Positions 6,500 to 63,973 of a stretch of 64,000 bases of DNA are shown one piece after another. Numbering within the stretch: the stretch's first letter is position 1; every line of letters begins with the position of its first letter. The stretch lies in contig NZ_MQWA01000001.1 of assembly GCF_002954445.1 (NCBI RefSeq), positions 3,741,780 through 3,805,779 on the forward strand. The letters run 5' to 3'. A program made the position numbers and the translations under genes. The notes beneath the pieces were generated by a model, which was not told where the DNA came from, searched no databases, and worked only from the letters and a program-made list of their open reading frames with translations. Source of the DNA: Rubritalea profundi (lineage in GTDB: Bacteria; Verrucomicrobiota; Verrucomicrobiia; Verrucomicrobiales; Akkermansiaceae).

Positions 6500-8269
6500 T
6501 TAGTTTCTCACACGTATTTTAGTGCGAGAGTAGTAGGTGGATGGTTCGAAAAGTCCGGAGAGTGAAGCTTTGTGCGGGTATCTTCCGATTTGTGGGTCAA
6601 TCAATGGAGCTATACTTGCATTTTTACTCATAATGGACGCGCTTTCGTTGCGTGTGAAGTAAGTAATCCATGGGATATAGGCCAATGCTGCGAGGTCACG
6701 GTTCTTGTAGAGCGATGTCTGGATATCCTCGCCGCGGTAGCTCATGCTGGAAATGTGTAGTCCTGCGATAGGATTGCCTCCCTCTGCAATGGCTTCAATC
6801 TTAGAGAAGTCATCGTAGGACTGAGGTAGCCAGATTGCGTGTCTATCAGCATACCAAGCCACAGCCCATGGTTGGTCGGAAATGATGATGTCCTCGTTAT
6901 CTGTGACCTTGTGTAATGGCCCGTTGAGACTGTACATGTCCACTCCGTTTATGCTGGTGCTGGGACGCTTATTGTCACTCAATTGCTTGATGTGCAGTAT
7001 GAGTGGTGCGGCTGTTATCAAGAGAATAACGGCAATATGTAGGTTGCCGAGGAAGCCCGCTTGTTGGCTTAATGGGCAGTGCGACCAAATAATACTAATG
7101 AGAGCAATTCCGTAGCCACACATGAGTGGGGCAAATAAGAGGTGGAGTTGGTTTGGGTCGAGCTGGCTCTTAGTAAGTCCATAGATACCCATGCCTATCG
7201 AGGCGAAAATCCACATAATGAGTATGTTCCATCGGAAAATAGCGATGCTGGAGCGCTTGAACGGGTGAGCTAAGCAAAGGAAGAATGCTGGAGCGAGTAT
7301 GAGTCCACCCAGGTAGTTGTGAACATTGGAGATCTGCAAGAGTGTTGATTGTGCAGTTCTAGCAAGGATGCCCTTGACGTTGAAAGTTCCGTCAAACTGG
7401 CGCATGGCATTATCTGCCCCTCCGGCGTGAATGGCATGGAAGGCTGTTCCCTTAGCGTCACCCGTTTGAGTCCAATAGAAAATGATGGGGCCAGCAATGA
7501 AGAAGAGCATGATGAGAGCTAACCCAATAGCGATCACTCCGCGTGGGCGGAAGTAGAAGCAAGCGAAGATGAAGTAGCCGATGAAAATCCACAAGGTCAT
7601 CCAGTGAGAGAGAGCAAGTAGGCCGAAAAAGAATCCTGAGAGTAGAGCTGGAACGAGCGGTTTGCGTTCAGCCTCCTGGGCTTCCACGGCGCGCCACGCT
7701 AGGTAGCACGCTGCGGAGAACAGCGTGAGCATCAGCATCTGCGGTAGACCAGTCTGGGTGATTTTCCACATATAGTCGGAGAATACCATGATGAGCGCTA
7801 CAATGGAGGCTATCTTCGCATCAAATATGCGCGAAATAAGGAGGTAGTTGAGACCTATAGCAATTAAGAAAAAAGTGGCACAGGTGATAGCGATGATTCG
7901 GTCTAATTTATAGAGCTTATCATTTACCTCCATCTTGTAGTTTTCAAAATCATCGGCACCGACCATTTTTAGAACGCCGGCGTAAACAAGAATATTAAGT
8001 GGAGAGTGATAGGTTTCAGGAATATGCAGGAGGTTGATTTCCTTTTCATTTTCGATCATTTGCTGAAGAGTGATGGGACGAATGAACTTCGTGGTAAGTC
8101 CATTCCCTCTGGCTACTTCACGTCCAACCTGAGCCTGATCGATGCCTGTCCTGCTGGTGAGTCCGTCAAAGCTGAATACTGTGTGAAGTATAAAAAGGCC
8201 GATGAGGAGGGCTGCGAAAATGGCGCGGCGGAAGAAGTTGCCGGAGTCGAATGCTGATTTTGCGTTCAT
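6500..8269 (-). CDS. Polytopic membrane protein, GT-C/ArnT-like glycosyltransferase fold (putative)
   Basis: The 589-residue protein opens with a transmembrane helix (about 15-33). An extracytoplasmic stretch follows with the acidic motif GIDQAQVGREVARG, then roughly ten further hydrophobic segments and a soluble C-terminal part of about 150 residues. A first-loop acidic residue just after helix 1 and this topology are typical of GT-C transferases (PMT/ArnT/GT39), which use polyprenyl-linked sugars outside the membrane. I do not recognise a specific family and the acceptor is unknown. It starts 9 bases after the sigma-54 regulator and sits 22 bases before xseB, so it is likely in their operon. 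Confidence 0.6.
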   Translation of the reverse strand: MNAKSAFDSGNFFRRAIFAALLIGLFILHTVFSFDGLTSRTGIDQAQVGREVARGNGLTTKFIRPITLQQMIENEKEINLLHIPETYHSPLNILVYAGVLKMVGADDFENYKMEVNDKLYKLDRIIAITCATFFLIAIGLNYLLISRIFDAKIASIVALIMVFSDYMWKITQTGLPQMLMLTLFSAACYLAWRAVEAQEAERKPLVPALLSGFFFGLLALSHWMTLWIFIGYFIFACFYFRPRGVIAIGLALIMLFFIAGPIIFYWTQTGDAKGTAFHAIHAGGADNAMRQFDGTFNVKGILARTAQSTLLQISNVHNYLGGLILAPAFFLCLAHPFKRSSIAIFRWNILIMWIFASIGMGIYGLTKSQLDPNQLHLLFAPLMCGYGIALISIIWSHCPLSQQAGFLGNLHIAVILLITAAPLILHIKQLSDNKRPSTSINGVDMYSLNGPLHKVTDNEDIIISDQPWAVAWYADRHAIWLPQSYDDFSKIEAIAEGGNPIAGLHISSMSYRGEDIQTSLYKNRDLAALAYIPWITYFTRNESASIMSKNASIAPLIDPQIGRYPHKASLSGLFEPSTYYSRTKIRVRN

Positions 8270-8278
8270 CGATTGGGG

Positions 8279-9712
8279 TTAGATGTCGAGTTCTTTGAGT
8301 TTGCGCTGAAGTGTGCGACGGCTGATACCTAGCAGTTCAGCTGCAGCAGTGCGATTATTATTTGTGTGTTTCAATGCTTGCTGAATCATTTCTGACTCAA
8401 GGGTGTGCAGATTGAAGCTGAGCGGGGATGTCTGAAGCTCGGGGAGTGCGTTTTGCTGGCTGTCGGTATTTGAGTCATCTGAGGACGGCGGAATAAGATG
8501 GGCGCCGGATTGAATGTTGAAAGGGAGATGGATAGATTCGATGCTCGTGCCATTACTCATGACGACTCCATGCTCAATGGCGGTGCGCAGTTCGCGGACG
8601 TTGCCTGGCCAGTTATAGTGTTGAATTTGTCTAGAGGCCTCAATCGAGATGGAGCTCACTTGTTTGTTGTTCTCTTGATTAAACTCTTTGAGGAATACAT
8701 TTGCTAGAAGGATGATGTCTTCTTTGCGGTTCCTTAAGGGGGGGAGCACCATCTTGACTACATTGAGCCTAAAAAAAAGATCTTCGCGGAAGTCTCCTTT
8801 TGCGACCATTCTCGCAAGATTTTTGTTAGTGGCAGTAATGACTCTTACATCTATGTTGATGGTCGAGTTAGATCCGACGCGCTCGATAGTGCGCTCGGAG
8901 AGGACTCGTAGTAGTTTGACCTGTGTTGCTTGATCAACTTCCCCGATTTCATCCAGAAAAAGTGTTCCACCATCAGCTTGCTCGAAGCGACCAATGCGTC
9001 TTTGGCTGGCACCGGTGAATGCGCCTTTCTCGTGGCCAAAAAGTTCGCTTTCTAGTAGTTGAGGAGAGAGGGCTGCGCAGTTGACCGTAATTATTTTGTC
9101 TTTGGCGCGGCCGCTGAGTGAATGGATGGCATTGGCTACCACCTCTTTTCCCGTTCCAGATTCGCCTTCGATGAGGACGGTGGCTTTCGTGGGTGAGATC
9201 TGTGTGATCATCGCATGGATTTGCGCCATTGCTGGTGAGTTGCCTATGAGCGGCTCTAGCCCGTGCGGTTGTTTACCAACCTTTTTACGAAGCTCTTGGT
9301 TTTCAGTCTCTAGTTTTTGGTTATTCGACTCAAGTGATCTGCTACGCAATGCGCGTTTGATCATGAATTCCACCTCATCAATATTGAGGGGTTTGGTGAC
9401 AAAATGCCAAGCTCCCCGGCGCATCGCTTCGACCGCTGTATCGACTGACCCATAGGCGGTCATCATGATGGCTATGGGAGCATGTGGAAGCTTCAGTATG
9501 TTATCTAGAAGATCCATCCCACTGTCTCCACCCATGCGTAGATCTGTGAGGACGAGGTCTATTTTCTCTGAGTTGAGAATATTTGTAGCCTCTCTGATAT
9601 CTGAGGCTACGTAGCAGTCGAATTCATCTTCGAGAGCCATGCGGAGGCCGTCTCGGGTAGATTTTTCGTCGTCGACGATGAGGATAGTGGCGTCCATAGG
9701 GTAGGTGATCAA
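8279..9712 (-). CDS. Sigma-54-dependent response regulator (NtrC family)
   Basis: This 477-residue activator has three domains. The receiver domain (about 7-120) shows the acidic pair DD at 14-15 and the phospho-acceptor D57 in [10 protein letters not shown]. The AAA+ domain (about 154-390) has Walker A GESGTGKE (183-190), the sigma-54 contact loop GAFTGA (230-235) and Walker B DEIGEV. A Fis-type HTH lies at the C-terminus ([20 protein letters not shown]). It is expected to switch on sigma-54 promoters when phosphorylated by the kinase encoded directly upstream. Its ATG overlaps the kinase stop codon (ATGA), which is why I kept the start at 9712 rather than the internal Met at residue 6. Confidence 0.93.
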
Positions 9713-41298: not shown

Positions 41299-42369
41299 TT
41301 AAATTTGGATATCTGGATAGCTGCCGAGGATTTTCACCAAGGAACAATGCTTCCTGAGTTCATCGAGAGCGGCTGAAACATCTGTATCTTCAACGTGTCC
41401 AGCGAGATCAACATAGAAGAAGTACTCCCAATCTTGTTGCTTAGATGGGCGGGACTCAATCTTGGACATGTTGATGGCGCAGTCGTCAAATGCCTGCAGA
41501 GCCTTCACCAGTGAGCCCGGGTTATCCTTGATAGAAAAGAGCAGGGAAGTCCTGTCGTTACCAGTCGCTGGGCAGGTTTTCTCGCCAATCACGAGGAACC
41601 GCGTGGTGTTCGTAGCGCGATCTTGAATACAAGGATTGAGCATTGTAAGCCCGTACATTTCAGCAGCGAGCGGTCCACCCATAGCGGCAGCACCTTCAGA
41701 GGCTTTTTCCTTTGCTATTCGAGCAGCCTTTGTAGTTGAAGAAACCTCAACGAGATCAGCGTGCGGGAAATTCTGTAAAATCCAGCCGCGACATTGACCA
41801 AATACCTGTGGGTGTGAATAAAGAGTCTTGATCTGCTCGCGTGGTATATCAGCCATCAGGCCATTTTCGATACGCATCAAAATCTGCGCGCAGATTTTAA
41901 GCGGGGAATCAACAAAAAGATCAAGCGTGTGTGACACAGCTCCTTCAGTGGAGTTCTCGATCGGTACAACTCCATAGCTCGCTTGGCGACGTGCCACACA
42001 GTCGAACACGTCAGCAAAGTTTGGCTGTGATAAATATTCCACGCTGTGGCCGAATTTAGAAATAGCGGCTTGGTGTGTCCAAGTGCCTTCAGGTCCTAAA
42101 TACGCAATTTTTAGATCGTCCTCAAGCGCCAGTGCAGCCGACATAATTTCACGGTAGATCGCACGAATCGATTTCTCAGGCAAGCGGCCATCACTCATAG
42201 CGGAAAGTTTGCGGAGTAAACTTTCTTCACGCTCAGGAGCGTAGATCTGCAAACCTTCTTTTTTCTTAATTTCACCAACCACATGAACACAGTCAGCGCG
42301 CTGGTTCAAAAGTTGAAGAAGTTGAGCATCAATCTCATCAATGCGTGTTCGAATGTCGTTGAGTGGCAC
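41299..42369 (-). CDS. pheA: Bifunctional chorismate mutase/prephenate dehydratase
   Basis: The 356-residue enzyme converts chorismate to prephenate and on to phenylpyruvate for phenylalanine synthesis. The N-terminal chorismate mutase domain (about 1-85) shows RTRIDEIDAQLLQLLNQRA and GEIKKKEG. The prephenate dehydratase domain shows YLGPEGTWTHQAA, VVPIENSTEGAVSHTLD and the catalytic NTTRFLVIGE. A C-terminal ACT domain (NPGSLVKALQAF, KIESRPSK) probably gives feedback control by phenylalanine. It starts the pheA-lysA pair and is divergent from the giant macroglobulin-like gene. Confidence 0.95.
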   Translation of the reverse strand: MPLNDIRTRIDEIDAQLLQLLNQRADCVHVVGEIKKKEGLQIYAPEREESLLRKLSAMSDGRLPEKSIRAIYREIMSAALALEDDLKIAYLGPEGTWTHQAAISKFGHSVEYLSQPNFADVFDCVARRQASYGVVPIENSTEGAVSHTLDLFVDSPLKICAQILMRIENGLMADIPREQIKTLYSHPQVFGQCRGWILQNFPHADLVEVSSTTKAARIAKEKASEGAAAMGGPLAAEMYGLTMLNPCIQDRATNTTRFLVIGEKTCPATGNDRTSLLFSIKDNPGSLVKALQAFDDCAINMSKIESRPSKQQDWEYFFYVDLAGHVEDTDVSAALDELRKHCSLVKILGSYPDIQI

Positions 42370-55500: not shown

Positions 55501-58283
55501 GCGAGTACCCATGGGCCACCGAGGATGGACTTCGGATCAAACTCGTGAGCGAACAAAAGAACTACAAGCCAGGCGATACTGCCCGCATCCTAGTCATGAC
55601 ACCGATCGAGGGCACGGCACTGGTAACGGTGGAGCGCCAAGGAGTCATCGAAAGCTTCCGTAGAGAGCTCAAAGCTGACAAGCCAGTGCTAGAGTTCCCT
55701 ATCAGCAAGGACTTTGCACCAAACGCATTCGTCTCAGTCCTGATCATTCGCGGCTCAGATGTTAGTCCACGGAAATTTAAACAACCCGCGCTCAAGTTAG
55801 GCTTCTGTGAAATCAAAGTCACAGACCGCGGCAAAGAGCTCGCAGTAAGCATCGACAAATTGAGCTCCAGTGTGCTTCCCGGTCGGGAAATCACCCTCAC
55901 TGGCATGGTCAAAGACCATAACGGCAAACCCTGTAAGGATGCCGAAATCGTTCTTTTCGCTGAAGATGAAGGAACCCTCGCCGTGATGGGATTTACCACT
56001 CCTGACCCACTCAAGTTCTTCCACTCGCCACTCCGACTCTCGCTCAGAACTGGTGTATCACTCGGCTACATTATCGATGACAATCCAGACCACCGCTACA
56101 TGGGAAATAAAGGATTCACCATTGGCGGCGGCGGAGAGGTCCTAGCTGCGATGATGGATATGGATGCCATCAAGAATCGGGCAAACTTCGATCCCTGTGC
56201 CGCCTGGTTCCCGACGGTGAGCAGCAACTCTGAAGGTGCATTCTCAGCGACATTTAAAACCCCCGACACACTCACACGCTACCGCATCATCGCGGTCGCC
56301 CACCGCGCTGGGGACCAATTTGGCTCCAGTGAATCCTCGTTCATGGTCAACAAGGACATCATGTTAGAACCAAAGCCACCACGCTTTGCCCATGAAGGAG
56401 ATTCGTTAGAAACCAAAGTCCTCATAGAAAACACTAGCAACTACGCCGGATTGTGGGATGTCACACTCAAGACTGATAGCCTTTGCTCCATCCCCGAGGG
56501 AATAAACAACACACTAACAAAAACAGTTCAGCTGAAACCAAACAGCTCCGCCACATTGAGTTTCCCCGTCAGCTTCATCAACACTGGTGAAACGACTTGG
56601 ACATGGTCGGCAAGCCCGCGCACCATAGAAAACCAGCCACTCACCATCGCGCTTAAAAAACAACTCAGCGACGGCATAGAGAACACCTTCAACGTAGCCT
56701 ACCCAAGGCCACTGCTCCACCAGGCGGACTTTGCCCGACTCGAGGACAATACCCCAACAAACCTCGTGGCTAACATGACTCCTATGATCATGAATGGCCG
56801 AGGCCACATGGATTTAGAGTTCTCTAACTCACTGCTTCTCGAAGCCGGTGGCGCCTCTGACTACTTGCTCAAATATCCCTATGGATGCGTAGAGCAAACA
56901 ACCTCCAGCCTGATTCCATGGTTTGCTGTGCGTGATCTCAAAGGAATCGTTCCAGGCTTCTCTGAGAAGTCCGCTGGTCAAGTGGCTGAGGCCATTCAGA
57001 AAGGCGTCGATCGGCTCCTAAGCATGCAGACATCTGATGGCGGCCTCGCCTACTGGCCAGGCGGTGAGCGCTCCGAGGACTGGGCCAGCGTCTACGGCGG
57101 CATGGGCCTACTCCTAGCTCTAGAGCAAGGAGCCCATGCTCCAGAAGACTCTATAGAAGCTCTCTCTAGCTACCTCCAATCTATTGCTAGAAATCCAGTC
57201 AAGAATGGCAACTATCGTTCTTGGAGAAATGACACACGCGCTCGTGCACTCTATGTCCTCGCCCTTGCTGGAGCTGCCGATAAGGCGACACAGAATAAGC
57301 TCTACGACGAGCGCCACACCCTCAGCACCTCAGCCCGCAGCTTCCTCGCACTAGCCATCCATCACAGTGGCGGCAATGCCAAATTAGCCAACGAACTGAT
57401 CAGCAATGCTGGAACCTCCCCAGATAAAGGCCACTGGATGCGCTACCGTAGTGATATCCCAGTCCAGCTGCTCGCATGGTCCACCATCGCACCACGAGAT
57501 ATCCAGACTGAGAAAATGATGCAAAACTTACTCACCCAGAGAAACCCTCAGGGCCACTGGCGCACCACTTGGGTCAATGGTTGGGCGATGCACTCAATGG
57601 CTGCCTACGCCCGCTTCGTCGAGTCCGGCCGCCCTGATAGCAACATTACCCTGCAGACCAGCAGCGGCAAAAAAACCATCAAACTCACCAAAGACAAACC
57701 ACTCCAGCACCTCCGCTTACCGCTCGATGAGGCGCAAACTCTCATCGCGTCGTGTGAAGGCAAAGCCTACGCCCGCATCTTAGCTGCATCAAAACCTGAA
57801 GTCGCTCCATCTGGCCCAACATCTAACGATGGCATCACCATCACTCGTCGCTACGAGCGGATCAACGACAAAGGCGAAGCTAGCCCGCTGGACCAACCGC
57901 AAGTCGGAGATCTAATTCAAGTGACACTGACAGTAGGTATCCCGGCCAATGCCATGTACGTATCTATCGATGACCCATTGCCCAGCATCCTAGAATCGGT
58001 CAACGACGACTTCGCTTCGCAATCCAGCGTCCACAGCAAAAAGCTCAAACGCAACTACCGGATTTCACGCAGTGAGTTTAGAAATGAACGTAGTCTATTC
58101 TTCCTTAATCGTTCATGGGGAACGAAGAAGCAAGAAATCCAGTACCTCGCAAGAGTGACCGCAGCTGGAACCGTACACGCGCCGCCGGCAAAGGCGGAAT
58201 CGATGTACAATCCATCACAGTATGGACTCTCCGAAGCCCACACCTTCACAACGGTTAACAAAGCTGCCATGGCTGGCGAGTAG
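52581..58283 (+). CDS. Bacterial alpha-2-macroglobulin with thioester
   Basis: The 1900-residue protein has a type I signal peptide (MKTLLLATLLSAPIVWAQ; no lipobox cysteine seen, unlike E. coli YfhM). MG domains follow, including LYRPGATVRLKG (MG2-type, about residue 613). A Gly-rich bait-like segment (IGGGGEVLAAMM, about 1181) leads to AWFPTVSSNSEGAF and the A2M core (FKTPDTLTRYRIIAVAHRAG). The thioester motif is YPYGCVEQTTS with Cys1436, and the helical thioester domain follows (LLSMQTSDGGLAYWPGG). Bacterial macroglobulins trap proteases by cleavage-induced collapse and covalent capture. A plausible promoter (TTGCAG, 18 bases, TAATTT) lies at 52500-52529. pbpC follows after 13 bases. Confidence 0.92.
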   Translation: MKTLLLATLLSAPIVWAQPILNLSSTELLPETRYELIFEQSVVSKDQLNQPQANAYLKISPQLKGEIVWTQRNIAQFLPSEAPKLGTNYTFSTTRGINYENGKAIPTVKLKTTSSPDFKTTYHRRYSKKNNRMPYSYLRFNDDIKQSKVQTKFYYINKEGTATPAAVRQAEWADLESTYYIKPSWQQRFKNILNKRGGIDVESTTEWAKNKSISNGLIITPKYPLSIGEDWALVMKKNTPNASASDKTKADGNYHIWDIDPFDIDKIIPAVIADKARSIYVEFSTDLPEELDLELLKEVVHVHPIPKNLSFKRRYNDTLQITGDFQQRNDWKVTVDKEFEARNGLMLGTPLTKDIKFHYVPSGVAMASYDSAQLAKGDRSFKINTVNMREVRVQIKSLHNEQAIRATQGYRHYSGNGPNYNDIKDTAPLPFELISGTTVYDEVITLDNAVDTSRDIHLSWNKILPNKLRNATLFISVTGQPKARLDRKASLKRRVQSLVQLTDIGLAWKLNGAKAWVYAYSLETGKPLSGVELSMYGEDASKLHSATTDAQGLAVADCSKGDRHLMARTSDDQFSVTFDNSLSTVSMWRFPVDFTWNSSDDWQHKVMLFTDRNLYRPGATVRLKGIVREYNDNAIRKSGQTSMRLSIRDPRNKEIATSDLSISKAGGFDHSFTLPVGLVGQFTLRCALTGEGIEGDNAFSHRFQVQDFRRNAFELKPNLPAPANADKDVQFDIEAKYYQGTPVAEGTLHWYASSSKIGFYPEKFRDFQFGDHRDYDPYYWSHYFGYGDANRFRDTQQSNGTTTLTSEGTASITAAIPQIEFPAPQHISITGEVTDSRDQTLSCVRSTTYFPSDYFIGIQRSDALIRVGNQKKLNIVAVNTKGEYLDETQTIEIEIEREYYESVKILAKDGTTRTHNEKRSEKISTESFQLIAGKPSPYAFSPEKSGRYIFTLNGTDGQGHTTRTASRYYVYGSREYPWATEDGLRIKLVSEQKNYKPGDTARILVMTPIEGTALVTVERQGVIESFRRELKADKPVLEFPISKDFAPNAFVSVLIIRGSDVSPRKFKQPALKLGFCEIKVTDRGKELAVSIDKLSSSVLPGREITLTGMVKDHNGKPCKDAEIVLFAEDEGTLAVMGFTTPDPLKFFHSPLRLSLRTGVSLGYIIDDNPDHRYMGNKGFTIGGGGEVLAAMMDMDAIKNRANFDPCAAWFPTVSSNSEGAFSATFKTPDTLTRYRIIAVAHRAGDQFGSSESSFMVNKDIMLEPKPPRFAHEGDSLETKVLIENTSNYAGLWDVTLKTDSLCSIPEGINNTLTKTVQLKPNSSATLSFPVSFINTGETTWTWSASPRTIENQPLTIALKKQLSDGIENTFNVAYPRPLLHQADFARLEDNTPTNLVANMTPMIMNGRGHMDLEFSNSLLLEAGGASDYLLKYPYGCVEQTTSSLIPWFAVRDLKGIVPGFSEKSAGQVAEAIQKGVDRLLSMQTSDGGLAYWPGGERSEDWASVYGGMGLLLALEQGAHAPEDSIEALSSYLQSIARNPVKNGNYRSWRNDTRARALYVLALAGAADKATQNKLYDERHTLSTSARSFLALAIHHSGGNAKLANELISNAGTSPDKGHWMRYRSDIPVQLLAWSTIAPRDIQTEKMMQNLLTQRNPQGHWRTTWVNGWAMHSMAAYARFVESGRPDSNITLQTSSGKKTIKLTKDKPLQHLRLPLDEAQTLIASCEGKAYARILAASKPEVAPSGPTSNDGITITRRYERINDKGEASPLDQPQVGDLIQVTLTVGIPANAMYVSIDDPLPSILESVNDDFASQSSVHSKKLKRNYRISRSEFRNERSLFFLNRSWGTKKQEIQYLARVTAAGTVHAPPAKAESMYNPSQYGLSEAHTFTTVNKAAMAGE

Positions 58284-58296
58284 CACTCTAATATCC

Positions 58297-60600
58297 ATGA
58301 TTCTCCTTACCCAAGCATTCTTGGATAGAAACTCTCTAGCACGTTATCGTGTGGCGAGAATTTCTATCAGAATCATGGCTGTGCTCTCAGCACTCTGCCT
58401 CATGCTTTGGTATCTAGTTCCTTTAGCGTTCCCTCTCAATGAAGATGCTCTCGCAGGCCCTCCACCCTCAGTACTCATCCTCGATAACCAAGGGAACCCG
58501 CTCCACCATCAAGCTCGCAAGGACTACTACCTCAGCGAGTCGACTCCACTCGATGGCATCCCTCAATCGCTGATAGATGCCACATTAGCAGCCGAAGATA
58601 AACGTTTTCACGACCACGGAGGTGTGGATATTCTCGCTAACTTACGCGCTATAAAAGACTCAATAGAAGCTGAGAGGTTAGTAAGTGGAGCATCAACCGT
58701 GACCCAGCAAACCATCAAACTCACCACCGGTTCCCCCGCCAGAACCTTTAAAACAAAAATCATAGAAGCTCTCAGCGCTCGTCATTTAGAAATCAGCTAC
58801 ACCAAGCAAGAAATTCTTGCCTGCTACCTTAACCACCTCGACTACGGCAATCTCACTCAAGGGCCACGACAGGCATCACTGCACTATTTCGGCAAAGAAC
58901 TCAGCGAGCTCTCACTCGCTCAAACAGCTCTGCTCGCAGGCCTACCACAGGCTCCCTCACGCCACAACCCCAGAAGGAATCCGAATAATGCGAAGAAGCG
59001 GCGCGACTGGGTGTTAGAACGAATGCAGATCACTTGCGACTACCCGAGCACCCAAATCCAGCGCGCGATCAACGAGCCAATCCAACTCATACCCAGGAGA
59101 TCACACCAACTGCAAACTCAACTAGCCCAACTTGCAGTCGCCCACCGCACACCGGGTTCACGCACCATTCGCACCAGCATCGACAGCAAGCTTCAAGCCA
59201 CTGTAGAACGCACCCTAGCTGAAGAAGTGGCCAAGCTCCATCACCAGCATGTCAACAATGGCGCGGTCGTGGTCATCGACAACCACACGCGGCAGGTCTC
59301 AGCTCTCGTCGGTACCGCTGATTTTTCTGCTGAGAGTGGCCAGATCAATGCAGCGCTCACTCCACGTTCTCCGGGATCGGTGCTCAAGCCCTTCACCTAC
59401 CTGTTAGCAATTGAAAAACTACACTACTCCCCGGCCACCATTCTAGCCGATGTTCCCACTCAGTATGCTGGAATCCGAGGCCCAGAGGCTTTTGTCAACT
59501 ACGACCGCAAACACCGTGGTCCCGTTAGCCTCCATTCAGCACTTGGAAACTCACTCAATGTGCCCGCAGTGCGAACTCTAAATGCCCTAGGCGGCCCACG
59601 TGCACTCCACAGCTTCCTCCAACAGTTAGGCTTCAGCACCCTCACAGAAAAACCTAGCCACTACGGGCTCGGACTGACACTCGGCAGCGGTCCAGTCACC
59701 TTGATCGATGTGACCAACGGCTTTGCGAGCATAGCCTGCCAAGGAAGCCACACCGACTACATCCTTTTCCCTGATGACCAAACCACCATGCCCAAACGCG
59801 TCTGCTCAGCTGAATCAGCTTACCTCATAGCCAGCATCCTCACCGACAACCTCGCTCGATCAGCCACTTTTGGAAATAATTCCCAGCTCAGACTCCCCTT
59901 TCCCTGCGCTGTGAAGACTGGTACTTCATCTGACTTTCGGGACAATTTCTGCGTCGGATTCACCACTGATTTCACAGTTGGCGTCTGGGTGGGGAATCTA
60001 TCTAACCAACCTATGAAAGGCACCTCAGGAGTCACTGGAGCTGGCCCAGTTTTCCACCAAGTCATGCTGGATCTGCATAAAAACCGACCAGCCCATTGGC
60101 TGAAGAAACCCGCCAATGTGCTAGCTATCCAAATAGACCCACACACAGGCAAGCGGCTTGCTCCATCCCATCCACGCTTCCCTCTAAGCATCCACACCTT
60201 CACCAACAAAGACCGCATTCCTAAATGGGCAAACCACCTAGACTATTCTCAGAATGGCCAAGTCTACCTCAATGATCGCTTCACCCATTGGTTAAGTGAA
60301 ACTCCACAGCCTCCCTTCATTGCAGATCAAACGCGCCAGCATGACGTACCACTAAGAGTCCTCTCACCAGCCCGCGATGCCACCTACCTCTTAGACCCCG
60401 ACCTACCAGACAGAGGTGCCTATCTATCACTCATTTCTAACGACCCGGAATCTACCGAATGGTCCAGTACTAGTCTAGAAATCATAGACCACCACAAGTC
60501 CCCCACCCTCATCCTCACCGAAGGAGACCACCAAGTCACCGCCCACCACCGAGCCACTGGAAAATCCAGCACCATCCGATTCTCAGTTAGAGAACTCTAA
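58297..60600 (+). CDS. pbpC: Penicillin-binding protein 1C
   Basis: PBP1C is a bifunctional inner-membrane enzyme that polymerises and cross-links peptidoglycan. The 767-residue protein has a TM helix (about 22-45). The glycosyltransferase domain carries the catalytic Glu100 in LAAEDKRFHDHGGVD and the GASTVTQQTIKL and LARHLEI-like SARHLEISY regions. The transpeptidase domain has SPGSVLKPFTY (Ser361), SLN in GNSLNVPAV and KTGTS (Lys540). The C-terminal 90 residues match the extra BiPBP-type beta domain. I start at the ATG at 58297, after the macroglobulin stop at 58283; an earlier in-frame ATG overlaps that gene. The macroglobulin-pbpC pair is conserved in many bacteria. Confidence 0.94.
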   Translation: MILLTQAFLDRNSLARYRVARISIRIMAVLSALCLMLWYLVPLAFPLNEDALAGPPPSVLILDNQGNPLHHQARKDYYLSESTPLDGIPQSLIDATLAAEDKRFHDHGGVDILANLRAIKDSIEAERLVSGASTVTQQTIKLTTGSPARTFKTKIIEALSARHLEISYTKQEILACYLNHLDYGNLTQGPRQASLHYFGKELSELSLAQTALLAGLPQAPSRHNPRRNPNNAKKRRDWVLERMQITCDYPSTQIQRAINEPIQLIPRRSHQLQTQLAQLAVAHRTPGSRTIRTSIDSKLQATVERTLAEEVAKLHHQHVNNGAVVVIDNHTRQVSALVGTADFSAESGQINAALTPRSPGSVLKPFTYLLAIEKLHYSPATILADVPTQYAGIRGPEAFVNYDRKHRGPVSLHSALGNSLNVPAVRTLNALGGPRALHSFLQQLGFSTLTEKPSHYGLGLTLGSGPVTLIDVTNGFASIACQGSHTDYILFPDDQTTMPKRVCSAESAYLIASILTDNLARSATFGNNSQLRLPFPCAVKTGTSSDFRDNFCVGFTTDFTVGVWVGNLSNQPMKGTSGVTGAGPVFHQVMLDLHKNRPAHWLKKPANVLAIQIDPHTGKRLAPSHPRFPLSIHTFTNKDRIPKWANHLDYSQNGQVYLNDRFTHWLSETPQPPFIADQTRQHDVPLRVLSPARDATYLLDPDLPDRGAYLSLISNDPESTEWSSTSLEIIDHHKSPTLILTEGDHQVTAHHRATGKSSTIRFSVREL

Positions 60601-60615
60601 TAAAGGATCTCTGAA

Positions 60616-60740
60616 CTGCGCGTGGCTCGACACCGCTCCGAGACTGGGGCAGCTTGACGACCGCGGCGAGGCTTCATCGTCCATGCCAAGCACGATGAAG
60701 TATCTTTACCACGAATTTCACCAATCGCACGAATGAAGTG
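60616..60740. repeat. Direct repeat, left copy, flanking the UPF0158 gene
   Basis: This 125-base segment starts ctgcgcgtgg and contains the element cttgacgac, then a gcttcatcgt motif and a tail reading MPSTMKYLYHEFHQSHE if translated. A second copy is at 61315-61482. They align over the first 85 bases with roughly 80-85% identity; the left copy then lacks about 40 bases before the shared tctttacc-cgaatttcac tail. It lies 16 bases after the pbpC stop. It has no long open frame and looks like a dispersed intergenic element. Confidence 0.7.
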
Positions 60741-60880
60741 GCTTGGATTTTCTGCGAAATGTCAGAGGATGTTGACTTTATTTTGGCTTCAGCCTTCGAC
60801 TTGGCTAGTCGACGGAGAGAGCATTTTTTTGCAAGAGACTCTCGACTCACCCTTGGCAAGTATGCTAAGAATTTAAAATC

Positions 60881-61300
60881 ATGCTAAAATTATGTGATAT
60901 AGAAGAATCCTACGCGTACGTACATTTCGGTGATGAATACTCGAATACAGCTTATATCTCCAAGCTAACAGGAAAGACCTACTGGCACAGTGAGTTTGGG
61001 GACAATGAAGAAGAACTTCCTGAAAACATCGATGAAAATGATGAGTATGCCGTCATCCCCAGCAAGAGAGATCTCGATCTAGGTCAGACGCTTGTCTTTC
61101 GCTTTATGAGAAAAGTGGCTCCAGACCAGGAAGGCCAAGTGAGTAATTACTTTAGTAAGCGTGGCGCATACGCTCGATTTAGGGATTTTCTCGAACGTAA
61201 TAATTTACTTCAAAAATGGTACGACTTTGAAGATGAACAGACGAAATCGGCGCTAATAGCTTGGTGCGAAAGCAATGGAATCAAGCTAGTAGCTGACTGA
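60881..61300 (+). CDS. UPF0158 family protein
   Basis: The 139-residue acidic protein has the pattern of the uncharacterised UPF0158 family. It has an N-terminal AYVHFGDEYSNTAYISKLTG, then ENDEYAVIPSKRDLDLGQTL and a helical C-terminus (GAYARFRDFLERNNLLQKWY, then FEDEQTKSALIAWCESNGI). No function is known for the family. It stands alone between two direct repeats, with no gene of the same strand close by, which makes acquisition as a small cassette plausible. It is predicted to be cytoplasmic. Confidence 0.8.
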   Translation: MLKLCDIEESYAYVHFGDEYSNTAYISKLTGKTYWHSEFGDNEEELPENIDENDEYAVIPSKRDLDLGQTLVFRFMRKVAPDQEGQVSNYFSKRGAYARFRDFLERNNLLQKWYDFEDEQTKSALIAWCESNGIKLVAD

Positions 61301-61314
61301 TAAACACCTATGGG

Positions 61315-61482
61315 CTGCGCGTGGATCGACACCGATCTGAGGTAGGGTCGGCTTGACGACTGCGGCGGGGCTTCATCGTCGATGCCAAAAAGGATGAAGC
61401 TATTTCTACCGCGAAATGTAGCAAAGGCTGGGACAATGAAACATCTTTACCTCGAATTTCACAAATCACGAAATGAAGAGTG
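61315..61482. repeat. Direct repeat, right copy, flanking the UPF0158 gene
   Basis: This is the longer copy of the 60616 element, in the same orientation. It begins 15 bases after the UPF0158 stop codon. Inside lies a near-palindrome (gcttcatcgtc, a short loop, gatgaagc) that could form a hairpin. It retains about 40 bases missing from the left copy. About 20 bases on, the sequence tgcgcttttgtttttagcaa (61501-61520) matches a segment after leuB. The remaining bases to 61551 hold no gene. Confidence 0.65.
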
Positions 61483-61551
61483 CTGAGAAGCGTTCGTTAG
61501 TGCGCTTTTGTTTTTAGCAAACATACGTAATAAAAACCCAATCTCCCGATT

Positions 61552-62472
61552 TTATTCCGTCTTAGTTGATCCTAATCTCTCCACACCTAACATGACTGCG
61601 GCCCCTATAAAAATGATTAAGACAGCGATGGCTAGTTGAGCGTCGATTTGGGGTATATGGTTTGTGTAGCTGAGAATCTTTACTTCGCTATTTTTGATTA
61701 TTGTTTCTCCAGGGATCTTCCATGGCCAAATGATGACCAGTGAGCCAGCGACGAAGCCAGTGATGACTGACACAGCTATGTCGTGAAACCTCTTGAAGAG
61801 CCAGCTAAGGAAGTGAGAGAGTGCTATAAGACCGACGACAGCCCCCACTCCGACCGGAAGTAATATTGGGAGTGATTCTGCTAAATTCCCCTCACTTACC
61901 TTGTTGACGGAGGCAATCATGATGAGTTGGTAATTCCCCATCAAAAGAAGAACAAAGGATCCTGAGACTCCTGGAATAATCATGCTGCACATCGCAACAA
62001 CACCGCAAAGCATGAGATACAAGAGGTTGGTGTTCTCACTGGCTGAAGGAGTGAATGCCAAGCAGAGCGCTATCGCTAGACCGGCAGCTAATGCAACAAA
62101 CCGAGAGAGCGACCACTTCTTCACCATTTTTCCTACGGATGGGATGGATGCTACGATGAGGCCAAAAAACAAAGCTGCGACATAGATCGGGTATTTCTCG
62201 AAGCCAACTTCTAACACCTTCGCCAAAGTGAGCACACTGGTTAGTACTCCGACTCCAAGAGCTGCAAGAAACCAGAAGTCCACGTGCGCAATGAATTCCT
62301 TAACTTTGAATGAACCGAGTAACTTGATCGCTTTAAAATCAAACGATTTCAATGCGTTGATAAGTCTCTCGTAGATGCCAGTGATGAAGGCAACTGTGCC
62401 GCCTGAGACTCCAGGGACAACATTGGCTGCGCCCATGGCAAAGCCTTTTAAAAATACTCCGAATAAGTTCAT
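61552..62472 (-). CDS. DUF368 membrane protein, undecaprenyl-phosphate translocase (PopT) family
   Basis: Members of the DUF368 family are reported to flip the lipid carrier undecaprenyl phosphate back across the membrane for reuse in envelope synthesis. The 306-residue protein shows the family opening FLKGFAMGAANVVPGVSGGT and the internal repeat MIIPGVSGSFVLLLMGNYQ. About eight TM segments are present. The two P-G-V-S-G repeats form the transport core. It is a single minus-strand gene whose promoter lies within the 76 bases before the sucB stop. It converges with the UPF0158 region. Its function fits the neighbouring envelope genes. Confidence 0.88.
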   Translation of the reverse strand: MNLFGVFLKGFAMGAANVVPGVSGGTVAFITGIYERLINALKSFDFKAIKLLGSFKVKEFIAHVDFWFLAALGVGVLTSVLTLAKVLEVGFEKYPIYVAALFFGLIVASIPSVGKMVKKWSLSRFVALAAGLAIALCLAFTPSASENTNLLYLMLCGVVAMCSMIIPGVSGSFVLLLMGNYQLIMIASVNKVSEGNLAESLPILLPVGVGAVVGLIALSHFLSWLFKRFHDIAVSVITGFVAGSLVIIWPWKIPGETIIKNSEVKILSYTNHIPQIDAQLAIAVLIIFIGAAVMLGVERLGSTKTE

Positions 62473-62548: not shown

Positions 62549-63973
62549 TTACATTTCGAGCATCATGCGAGTCGGATTCTCAAGGCATTCTTTGATGCGG
62601 ATGAGGAATGTTACTGCTTCTTTGCCGTCTACAAGGCGGTGATCGTAGCTGAGTGCTAGATACATCATCGGACGAATCTCAACCTGACCATTCACAGCAA
62701 CTGGGCGTTGCTGAATAGTGTGCATCCCAAGGATGCCAGATTGTGGTGAGTTGAGGATCGGTGTGGAAAGAAGTGAACCGTAGACGCCGCCATTGGAGAT
62801 AGTGAAGCTGCCACCCTGAAGGTCGGACATTTCAATTTTCCCTTCACGTGCCTTCGTAGCGTAATTGAGAATGTCCTTCTCAATAGTGGCGAAGCCTTTC
62901 TTGTCGCAATCGCGGAGAACTGGAACAACGAGACCTTTATCCGTTCCAATTGCGCAGCCGATATCGATGAAGTTGTTCTGGATGACGTCCGTGCCTTCGA
63001 TGCGACCATTGATGCTAGGCACATCCTTGAGTGCTTGAGAAACTGCTTTCACAAAGATGGACATGAAGCCGAGTTTGCAGCCGTGCTTCTTGACGAAGTC
63101 TTCCTGAACCTCTTTGCGGAGCTTCATAATGGCAGACATATCCACTTCATTGAAAGTAGTAAGAATAGCAGCACTTTGCTGAGCGTTAACGAGATGTGTT
63201 GCAATCTTGCGACGCAACATGGACATCTTCTTGCGCGTTGTGCGACCTTCTGTCACTGCAGCGCCAGCCTTCTCACCTGAACCAGCAGGTGCAGAGAGTG
63301 ATGGCTTTATCGCAGGAGTTGCGACTGCTTTAGCTGGTGCGGCGACTGATACAGGGGCTGCTGCCTTAGCGACAGGTGCAGGTGTTGCGACTACGGCAGC
63401 GGGTGCTGCGGCTCCAACTGTGATCTTAGCGATCAATGTGCCGATACCGACTTCTTCACCTTCTGGGGTGATGATTTCGATAGCGCCAGAAACCTCAGCT
63501 TCGAGCTCAGTGGAAACTTTATCAGTCTCGAGAGTTACTAGCACATCACCTTTAGTGACGACATCACCAGTGGATACTTGCCAGTTGGCAACATTCGCGG
63601 ATGTGACTGACTCACCTGCCGCAGGCACGAGCACTTCTACTACTTCACCGCCAGTGGATACTGGTGCGGCAGCGGCAGGAGCAGCAACTTCAGCCACAGG
63701 AGCTGGTGTTACTGGAGCGGCAGCAGGAGTAGATGCGCCAGCGGTATCGATCTTAGCTACCACTGTTCCGATGGCTACTTCTTCACCTTCAGGGATGAGA
63801 ATTTGAATAGTACCGGATTGCTCAGACTCGAGCTCAGATGAAACCTTATCGGTCTCGATGGTCAGGAGAATGTCGCCTTTTGAGACGCTCGCACCGTCGG
63901 CAACGTGCCACTGGGCGACGTTTGCTGACGTGACTGACTCACCTGCATTTGGGATAATTACTTCGAATGACAT
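62549..63973 (-). CDS. sucB: Dihydrolipoyllysine succinyltransferase (2-oxoglutarate dehydrogenase E2)
   Basis: E2 transfers the succinyl group to CoA in the TCA cycle. The 474-residue protein has two lipoyl domains (about 2-75, Lys43 in [10 protein letters not shown]; about 110-185, Lys151 in [10 protein letters not shown]). A long Ala/Pro linker (187-245) and the catalytic domain (246-474) with [12 protein letters not shown] (His445, Asp449) follow. The [18 protein letters not shown] start of the core and [17 protein letters not shown] are typical of OdhB/SucB. The linker reads [14 protein letters not shown] and I see no peripheral subunit-binding domain for E3, normally found here. The start lies 27 bases from the window edge, so sucA may be just outside. 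Confidence 0.92.

Follow-up and report, generated by a model that had tools for sequence, protein, structure and literature searches.

Two diverged direct repeats that bracket a UPF0158 family gene in the genome of Rubritalea profundi belong to a dispersed family of short palindromic repeats that is associated with RAYT-type tyrosine transposases. The family is a RAYT/REP-like system whose tag is GGAGT, whereas GT[AG]G is the usual one among published REPs. We think it likely that the two copies at this gene are old, degraded REP-type copies, probably spread by RAYT, and that landings or rearrangement brought them to either side of the gene, rather than the excision and integration of a cassette as a unit. 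The bracket itself looks like an ordinary accident instead of a mobile cassette. What is worth keeping is the tag, which is clade-wide: GGAGT stands at hairpins beside most of the RAYT genes examined in the order.

The locus lies in a 64,000-nucleotide stretch of the genome (hereafter the window), in whose numbering positions are given unless a contig or locus is named. The copies are noncoding composites on the same strand, covering 60609-60739 and 61308-61480, with a copy-to-copy spacing of 699 bp (Table 1). A preliminary description of this DNA had reported two noncoding copies in the same orientation, and a local self-alignment bears this out, matching 60616-60715 to 61315-61415 at 82% identity over 101 bp (E 4e-24); a tail piece at 60712-60738 also aligns with 61453-61478. 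Ungapped extension moves their starts to 60609 and 61308, 8 and 7 bases past the stop codons of the pbpC-like and UPF0158 genes, respectively. The same description had named the bracketed gene UPF0158, in agreement with its Pfam score. A search against Rfam gave nothing near the gathering score. Gene calls throughout are crude ORFs, and parts of some of the compared loci read N.

Table 1 Features of the bracketed locus in the window, and integron-integrase-like genes of the same genome (contig coordinates).
Feature	Position	Strand	Remarks
pbpC-like penicillin-binding protein gene (Transgly + Transpeptidase)	58222..60600	+	PF00912 178 bits, PF00905 56.9 bits; upstream of copy 1
Copy 1, module A	60609..60666	+	tag degraded to GAACT
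Copy 1, hairpin 1	60618-60636		6/6 pairs kept; coordinates counted from module-A alignment
Copy 1, hairpin 2	60647-60662		2/5 pairs broken; coordinates counted from module-A alignment
Copy 1, third short inverted repeat (CTTCATCGT / ACGATGAAG)	60672..60700	+	inverted-repeat search
Copy 1, module B unit (TACCACGAATTTCACCAATCGCACGAAT)	60689..60739	+	tail read as YLYHEFHQSHE
UPF0158 family gene, 139 aa	60881..61300	+	ORF; PF03682 28.7 bits, cut-off 21.1
Copy 2, module A	61308..61365	+	tag degraded to GGGCT
Copy 2, hairpin 1	61317-61335		outermost of 6 pairs broken; coordinates counted from module-A alignment
Copy 2, hairpin 2	61346-61361		5/5 pairs kept; coordinates counted from module-A alignment
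Copy 2, two module B units (TACCGCGAAA type, then TACCTCGAATTTCAC type)	61392..61480	+
Terminator-like stem with T-run	61486..61509	+	chance level: 1 found vs shuffle mean 1.1
DUF368 / VCA0040-like (undecaprenyl phosphate translocase-like) gene	61552..62472	-	PF04018 269 bits; convergent with UPF0158
Integron-integrase-like gene (L192)	C1:3003537-3004445
Integron-integrase-like gene (L047)	C1:1076349-1077203
Integron-integrase-like gene (L039)	C1:3197843-3198364

Used as a BLASTN query, copy 1 gave 45 matches in its own genome (E <= 0.01), so the element is dispersed well beyond the window, and these matches resolve into two separable modules. Module A is 58 bp long, and its fuller copies are inverted pairs; among the copies listed, 11 elements of 157-227 bp and one of 83 bp have the arrangement of a REPIN, whereas the two window copies are solo halves. 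In 20 evenly spaced 20-kb stretches of the genome (400 kb), we found 16 module-A half-sites, spread over 8 of the 20 stretches, with 12 of the 16 forming 6 inverted pairs, and also 16 module B units; extrapolated to the whole genome, this gives above ~150 half-sites. Half-sites are mostly intergenic: 40 of 50 lie between crude ORFs, compared to 946 of 4000 random 58-mers from the even sample, and at L034 at least the overlaps are with ORFs created by the repeat itself. Convergent gaps are over-represented among those with module A (13 of the 36 that could be placed, versus 119 of 771 for random segments). Units of module B measure ~50 bp and have repeats such as CACGAATNN at their end; they are also present without module A, in intergenic islands among other simple repeats. 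The tail translating to YLYHEFHQSHE, previously likened to dispersed repeats of other environmental bacteria, is one unit of this second family. An exact 28-base pattern of the module B core has 17 matches in its own genome and 0 in 193 other genomes drawn from the phylum. Element DNA was matched in 7 of 58 genomes, R. profundi included. The evidence thus supports the term dispersed repeat, and the window repeats belong to a genuine if slightly unusual family of this kind.

Each module-A half-site holds two tandem hairpins with GCTYGA loops, the pairing of which is conserved. In an alignment of 44 full-length rows (40 distinct; 6 of the 50 half-sites were omitted as partial), pairing holds in 220 of 240 cells for hairpin 1, where one pair was allowed either of two columns (a bulge), and in 176 of 198 for hairpin 2, with changes on both sides of the stem in 24 and 51 cells, respectively. 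These paired counts were reached by 0 of 1000 shuffles for either hairpin, for a structure derived from the same copies on which it was scored; in a control, hairpin 2 slid by +2 still pairs in 126 of 187 cells. Module A is, as REPs are, a short GC-rich palindrome with conserved pairing. The hairpin potential seen in the preliminary description therefore stands for two short stems that covary across the copies of the genome, but not for the window repeat regions as wholes, which fold no better than shuffles (z -0.19 and -0.48). The tag reads GGAGT in 26 of the 44 rows, GGACT in 13 and otherwise in 5, and the canonical GT[AG]G foot of REPs is absent from the module A family.

Three copies of the element flank a gene for a 180-aa Y1 transposase in the same genome (C1:4155484-4156023). 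Its product matches PF01797 (Y1_Tnp) with 24.6 bits (cut-off 23), and its best NCBIfam model is REP_Tyr_transpos (NF047646), at 74.8 bits, below the cut-off of 80. The protein has an NHYH motif and, in an alignment of 12 relatives, an invariant tyrosine, and a profile built from these relatives had one PDB match at E <= 0.01, to TnpArep (4er8_A, 2.5e-9). Relatives of this gene were found in 72 of 189 genomes of the order (1e-15) and in none of the 11 same-genus genomes searched (1e-10). One of the 7 genomes with element DNA, G041, has 10 matches to the element yet no RAYT match at 1e-10. Among the 12 further Y1 transposase loci of the R. profundi genome, one (L052) likewise has modules A and B in its flanks, which leaves the cognate enzyme uncertain.

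The association of tag and transposase extends across the order. We scanned 39 RAYT loci (46 fetched, 7 duplicates dropped), all of them best matches of the relative searches, for strict sites, defined as GAGTGC with a stem of at least 6 after it. Such sites were present at 26 loci, with two or more at 22, and absent at 13. They number 77 in total, whereas 20 dinucleotide shuffles gave 0.80 on average and never more than 2; G precedes 71 of the 77, and 42 of the 69 for which the distance was measurable lie within 200 bp of the RAYT gene, with 0 inside it. Stems vary from locus to locus (GCGGTG, GCGGCG, GCTCCA, GCGCCG, GCTGTG and others) and the tag is constant. Without regard to the strict definition, GAGT is the top 4-mer hairpin foot near RAYT genes (80 of 1979 feet, versus 18 of 3741 in 400 kb of the R. 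profundi genome). Against a background drawn from this one genome, the density of GAGT feet is over fourfold higher near RAYT genes (0.788 versus 0.175 per kb), and around the 12 other Y1 loci of R. profundi it is near background (0.207). GTAG feet with a stem of 5 or more, present at 15 of the 39 loci, are enriched about twofold (0.245 versus 0.125 per kb), and hairpins overall are denser near RAYT genes (15.1 versus 9.4 per kb). At one RAYT locus (L124, G035:C46 ~90594-91115), the flanking repeats carry TAGAGTGC, with a different stem, and are regularly spaced, ~174-195 bp apart.

These features are those of REPs and REPINs with their RAYT (TnpA_REP) genes, known together as REPtrons: short, dispersed intergenic palindromes, often in inverted pairs, that cluster around HUH-Y transposase genes, with 50 half-sites in the loci sampled here. 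An HUH-Y1 gene flanked by its repeats is found both at the R. profundi locus and at 26 of the 39 loci of the order. The present family differs in its (G)GAGT tag directly before the stem, its tandem GCTYGA-loop hairpins and the second repeat joined to it. Opitutus terrae belongs to a different order from R. profundi. REPs are already known in Verrucomicrobia from GTAG repeats in O. terrae, which are unlike the GGAGT repeats described here in their tag; among the papers listed by our literature search on REPs and Verrucomicrobia, that source, in its available text, was the only one found to bear on the subject (PMC3733652). For canonical REPs the foot is given as GT[AG]G in the accessible parts of two sources (PMC6006769, PMC8266576), and another REP super-family has CGTC (PMC3733652, available text); the remaining classes in the sources consulted have atypical feet. 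The TnpA_REP proteins of subclass 2.8 are similar in the HYH form of their HUH motif and in a reported proline-rich N-terminus that the proline-containing start of the R. profundi protein (WPHAPPH) resembles, but their REPs are reported with GT[AG]G, unlike the tag here (PMC6006769, in the part available). RAYT-type genes with flanking repeats other than GTAG, some of them dispersed families, have also been described: in TIRtrons, RAYT-like genes (TIRYT) lie between long terminal inverted repeats that bear no relation to GTAG REPs. As described in the available text of that source, these inverted repeats are either mutually unrelated or share GGGGWSAS, and GGAGT hairpins are not seen, which sets them apart from the present family (PMC3733652). 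We found no paper describing a GAGT or GGAG tag with a RAYT in a search of freely readable main texts (subscription papers, figures and supplements lay outside it), and among 12 papers on REP sequences or RAYT, GGAG occurred in one, in connection with gal mRNA.

The tag may also bear on how these transposases choose their target. In the accessible text of PMC8266576, a model is supported whereby the tetranucleotide acts as a guide in selecting the dinucleotide for cleavage, with A3G4 of the guide linked to cleavage at CT. Read as a guide placed one base from the stem, GGAG would retain A3G4, and CT precedes the tag in 27 of the 36 R. profundi rows in which both bases align. A natural guide variant, shared by many transposase-repeat pairs in which the stem varies and the tag is fixed, makes the guide model testable.

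On the account that we favor, the REP-type family would be copied by a RAYT (a single-strand tyrosine transposase of the HUH type) whose gene lies elsewhere in the genome; the enzyme would bind the single-stranded hairpin that bears the GGAGT tag and nick beside it, and new copies would survive mainly in intergenic positions. In R. profundi the REP core is joined to module B, and two of the resulting composites follow the pbpC-like gene and UPF0158, the latter low in GC and sporadic. RAYT gives no account of module B. The window copies look like fossils that have lost their mobility; we read them so because the tag is lost in both (GAACT, GGGCT), pairing is broken at one or more positions in one hairpin of each, and both are solo halves on long branches, within an 8-row subfamily (96/88). 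They most likely represent two separate landings, or else an old repeat-mediated rearrangement around an acquired gene, and independent landings in two gaps are the simplest account.

The bracketed gene has a GC content of 0.422, compared to an ORF mean of 0.499, which places it in the lowest 2.1% of 331 ORFs. It is sporadic, being present in 2 of 30 genomes of relatives and, by PF03682, in 7 of 288 genomes of the order, R. profundi included in both. Confinement of the element to this spot, or the constant presence of the gene in relatives, had been named beforehand as outcomes that would speak against mobility; since the element is dispersed and the gene sporadic, neither occurred. Nonetheless, a repeat-bracketed mobile cassette finds no support, as the core of the bracket is a REP-type repeat tied to a tyrosine transposase, neither module accompanies UPF0158 elsewhere, and the copies are not mutual nearest relatives by identity. 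Specifically, modules A and B were not detected near 11 homologous UPF0158 genes (E <= 0.1) or in flanking-gene regions from two relatives, and 10 of the 11 loci had no shared repeat within 500 bp either side of the UPF0158 match, although at six of these 10 the match is the Pfam domain, and the flank may therefore be partly coding. Of the 11 same-genus genomes, only G006 has its PBP and DUF368 matches on a single contig, where they are not neighbors; in the others they fell on different contigs of draft assemblies, and no junction that could be compared as an empty site was found. The named relatives of the UPF0158 protein, 39-44% identical, are from Pseudoalteromonas, Colwellia and Shewanella. 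Matches were found in 41 plasmid records, 26 of them from Rhizobium, and no solved structure was matched at E <= 1. An origin as a phage gene was considered and dropped, with no relative found in viral contigs or phages.

The alternative with the strongest claim, though still an unlikely one, is that recombination between direct REP composites brought or amplified UPF0158, so that the copies are the joins of a duplication or capture. Such an event would suit a gene so low in GC and so sporadic, and there is a parallel at L031, where three direct module-A copies lie 734 and 792 bp apart (699 bp at the bracketed gene), with partial tandem copies of one small ORF (86% over 953 bp) between and after them. 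However, each window copy is 86% identical to the copy at 1440547 and 79% identical to its partner (ranks 12 and 7 of 43), and a self-comparison of 60400-61800 shows no second UPF0158 remnant. The pair may nevertheless have a common origin, since they share small features (CGAG/TGAG, ATGCCA) and a tree pairs them, if weakly (92/3, on 58 columns only). Recent local duplication of the copies is supported neither by the identity ranks nor by this 58-column tree. We give less credence to the repeats being kept as RNA elements that, whatever their origin, stabilize or terminate the 3' ends of the pbpC and UPF0158 mRNAs. The start of both copies so soon after stop codons and the enrichment of module A in convergent gaps would fit such a role, but the whole-region folds do not exceed those of shuffles, the sole terminator-like site is outside the repeat and at chance level, and each copy has broken pairing in one of its hairpins.

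An integron origin, with UPF0158 acquired as a gene cassette and the repeats serving as attC-like recombination sites, seems to us very improbable. There is a likeness: in integrons too a single gene lies between direct noncoding repeats that trail stop codons. As a weak lead toward a cassette, in an uncultured Colwellia MAG (L132:1-2150, CAJXUN010000046.1) a UPF0158 homologue with 42% identity is one cassette of an integron-like array, with a single ORF between each of five repeats which, from the features we associate with attC sites, we take to be attC-like; thus, this gene family can travel as a cassette, by a different repeat. Two integron-type integrases of R. profundi itself score above the TIGR02249 cut-off, and a third, which is shorter, scores below it. 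Yet the bracketed gene differs from integron cassettes in having no array, no attC-like site that our weak detector could see and a core that is tied to RAYT and tracks RAYT genes across the order. The window repeats do not fold as one long hairpin, and a folding scan for attC found no such fold at them; it gave 5 matches in the window, at 41388-41476 and 62923-62978, and 25 in the 400-kb sample. At the three integrase loci, a scan for strict 7-mers matched once, within a coding ORF, and where the sequence around the integrases can be read it shows no run of small ORFs with the composite between them. The attC negatives are weak because the scans recovered only one of the ~five sites in the L132 array. 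A variant of this idea concerns module B, for which the preferred account of RAYT-spread copies has no explanation: its units may be unrecognized recombination sites of the integrases, carried by RAYT-spread composites, with UPF0158 captured there. We regard this as the most speculative of the readings and scarcely credible at present. The nearest module B units lie 165, 201 and 36 bp from the integrase 3' ends at L192, L047 and L039, respectively. One region is present twice, as L047 and L039 (92% over 855 bp). What L192 has in common with these two is mainly its module B dimer, 96% identical over 124 bp.

Elsewhere in the genome, L031:6013-8241 (C1:3934012-3936240) is a decaying tandem array of repeat-plus-ORF units made by duplication. 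Among the ORF copies that share the C-terminal part, the longest encodes 156 aa (7846-8316, minus strand) and has no Pfam match. The intergenic islands at L031, L032, L037, L039, L041, L047, L049 and L050 are mosaics of simple repeats alongside module B, including TCCTAATTCCTAATTGGAGC, ACCACAGATTACACAGATT, GGGACGTTTCTCCGAAAACGTCC and CACGTAGAAGAGCGCTTCCAGCCTC.
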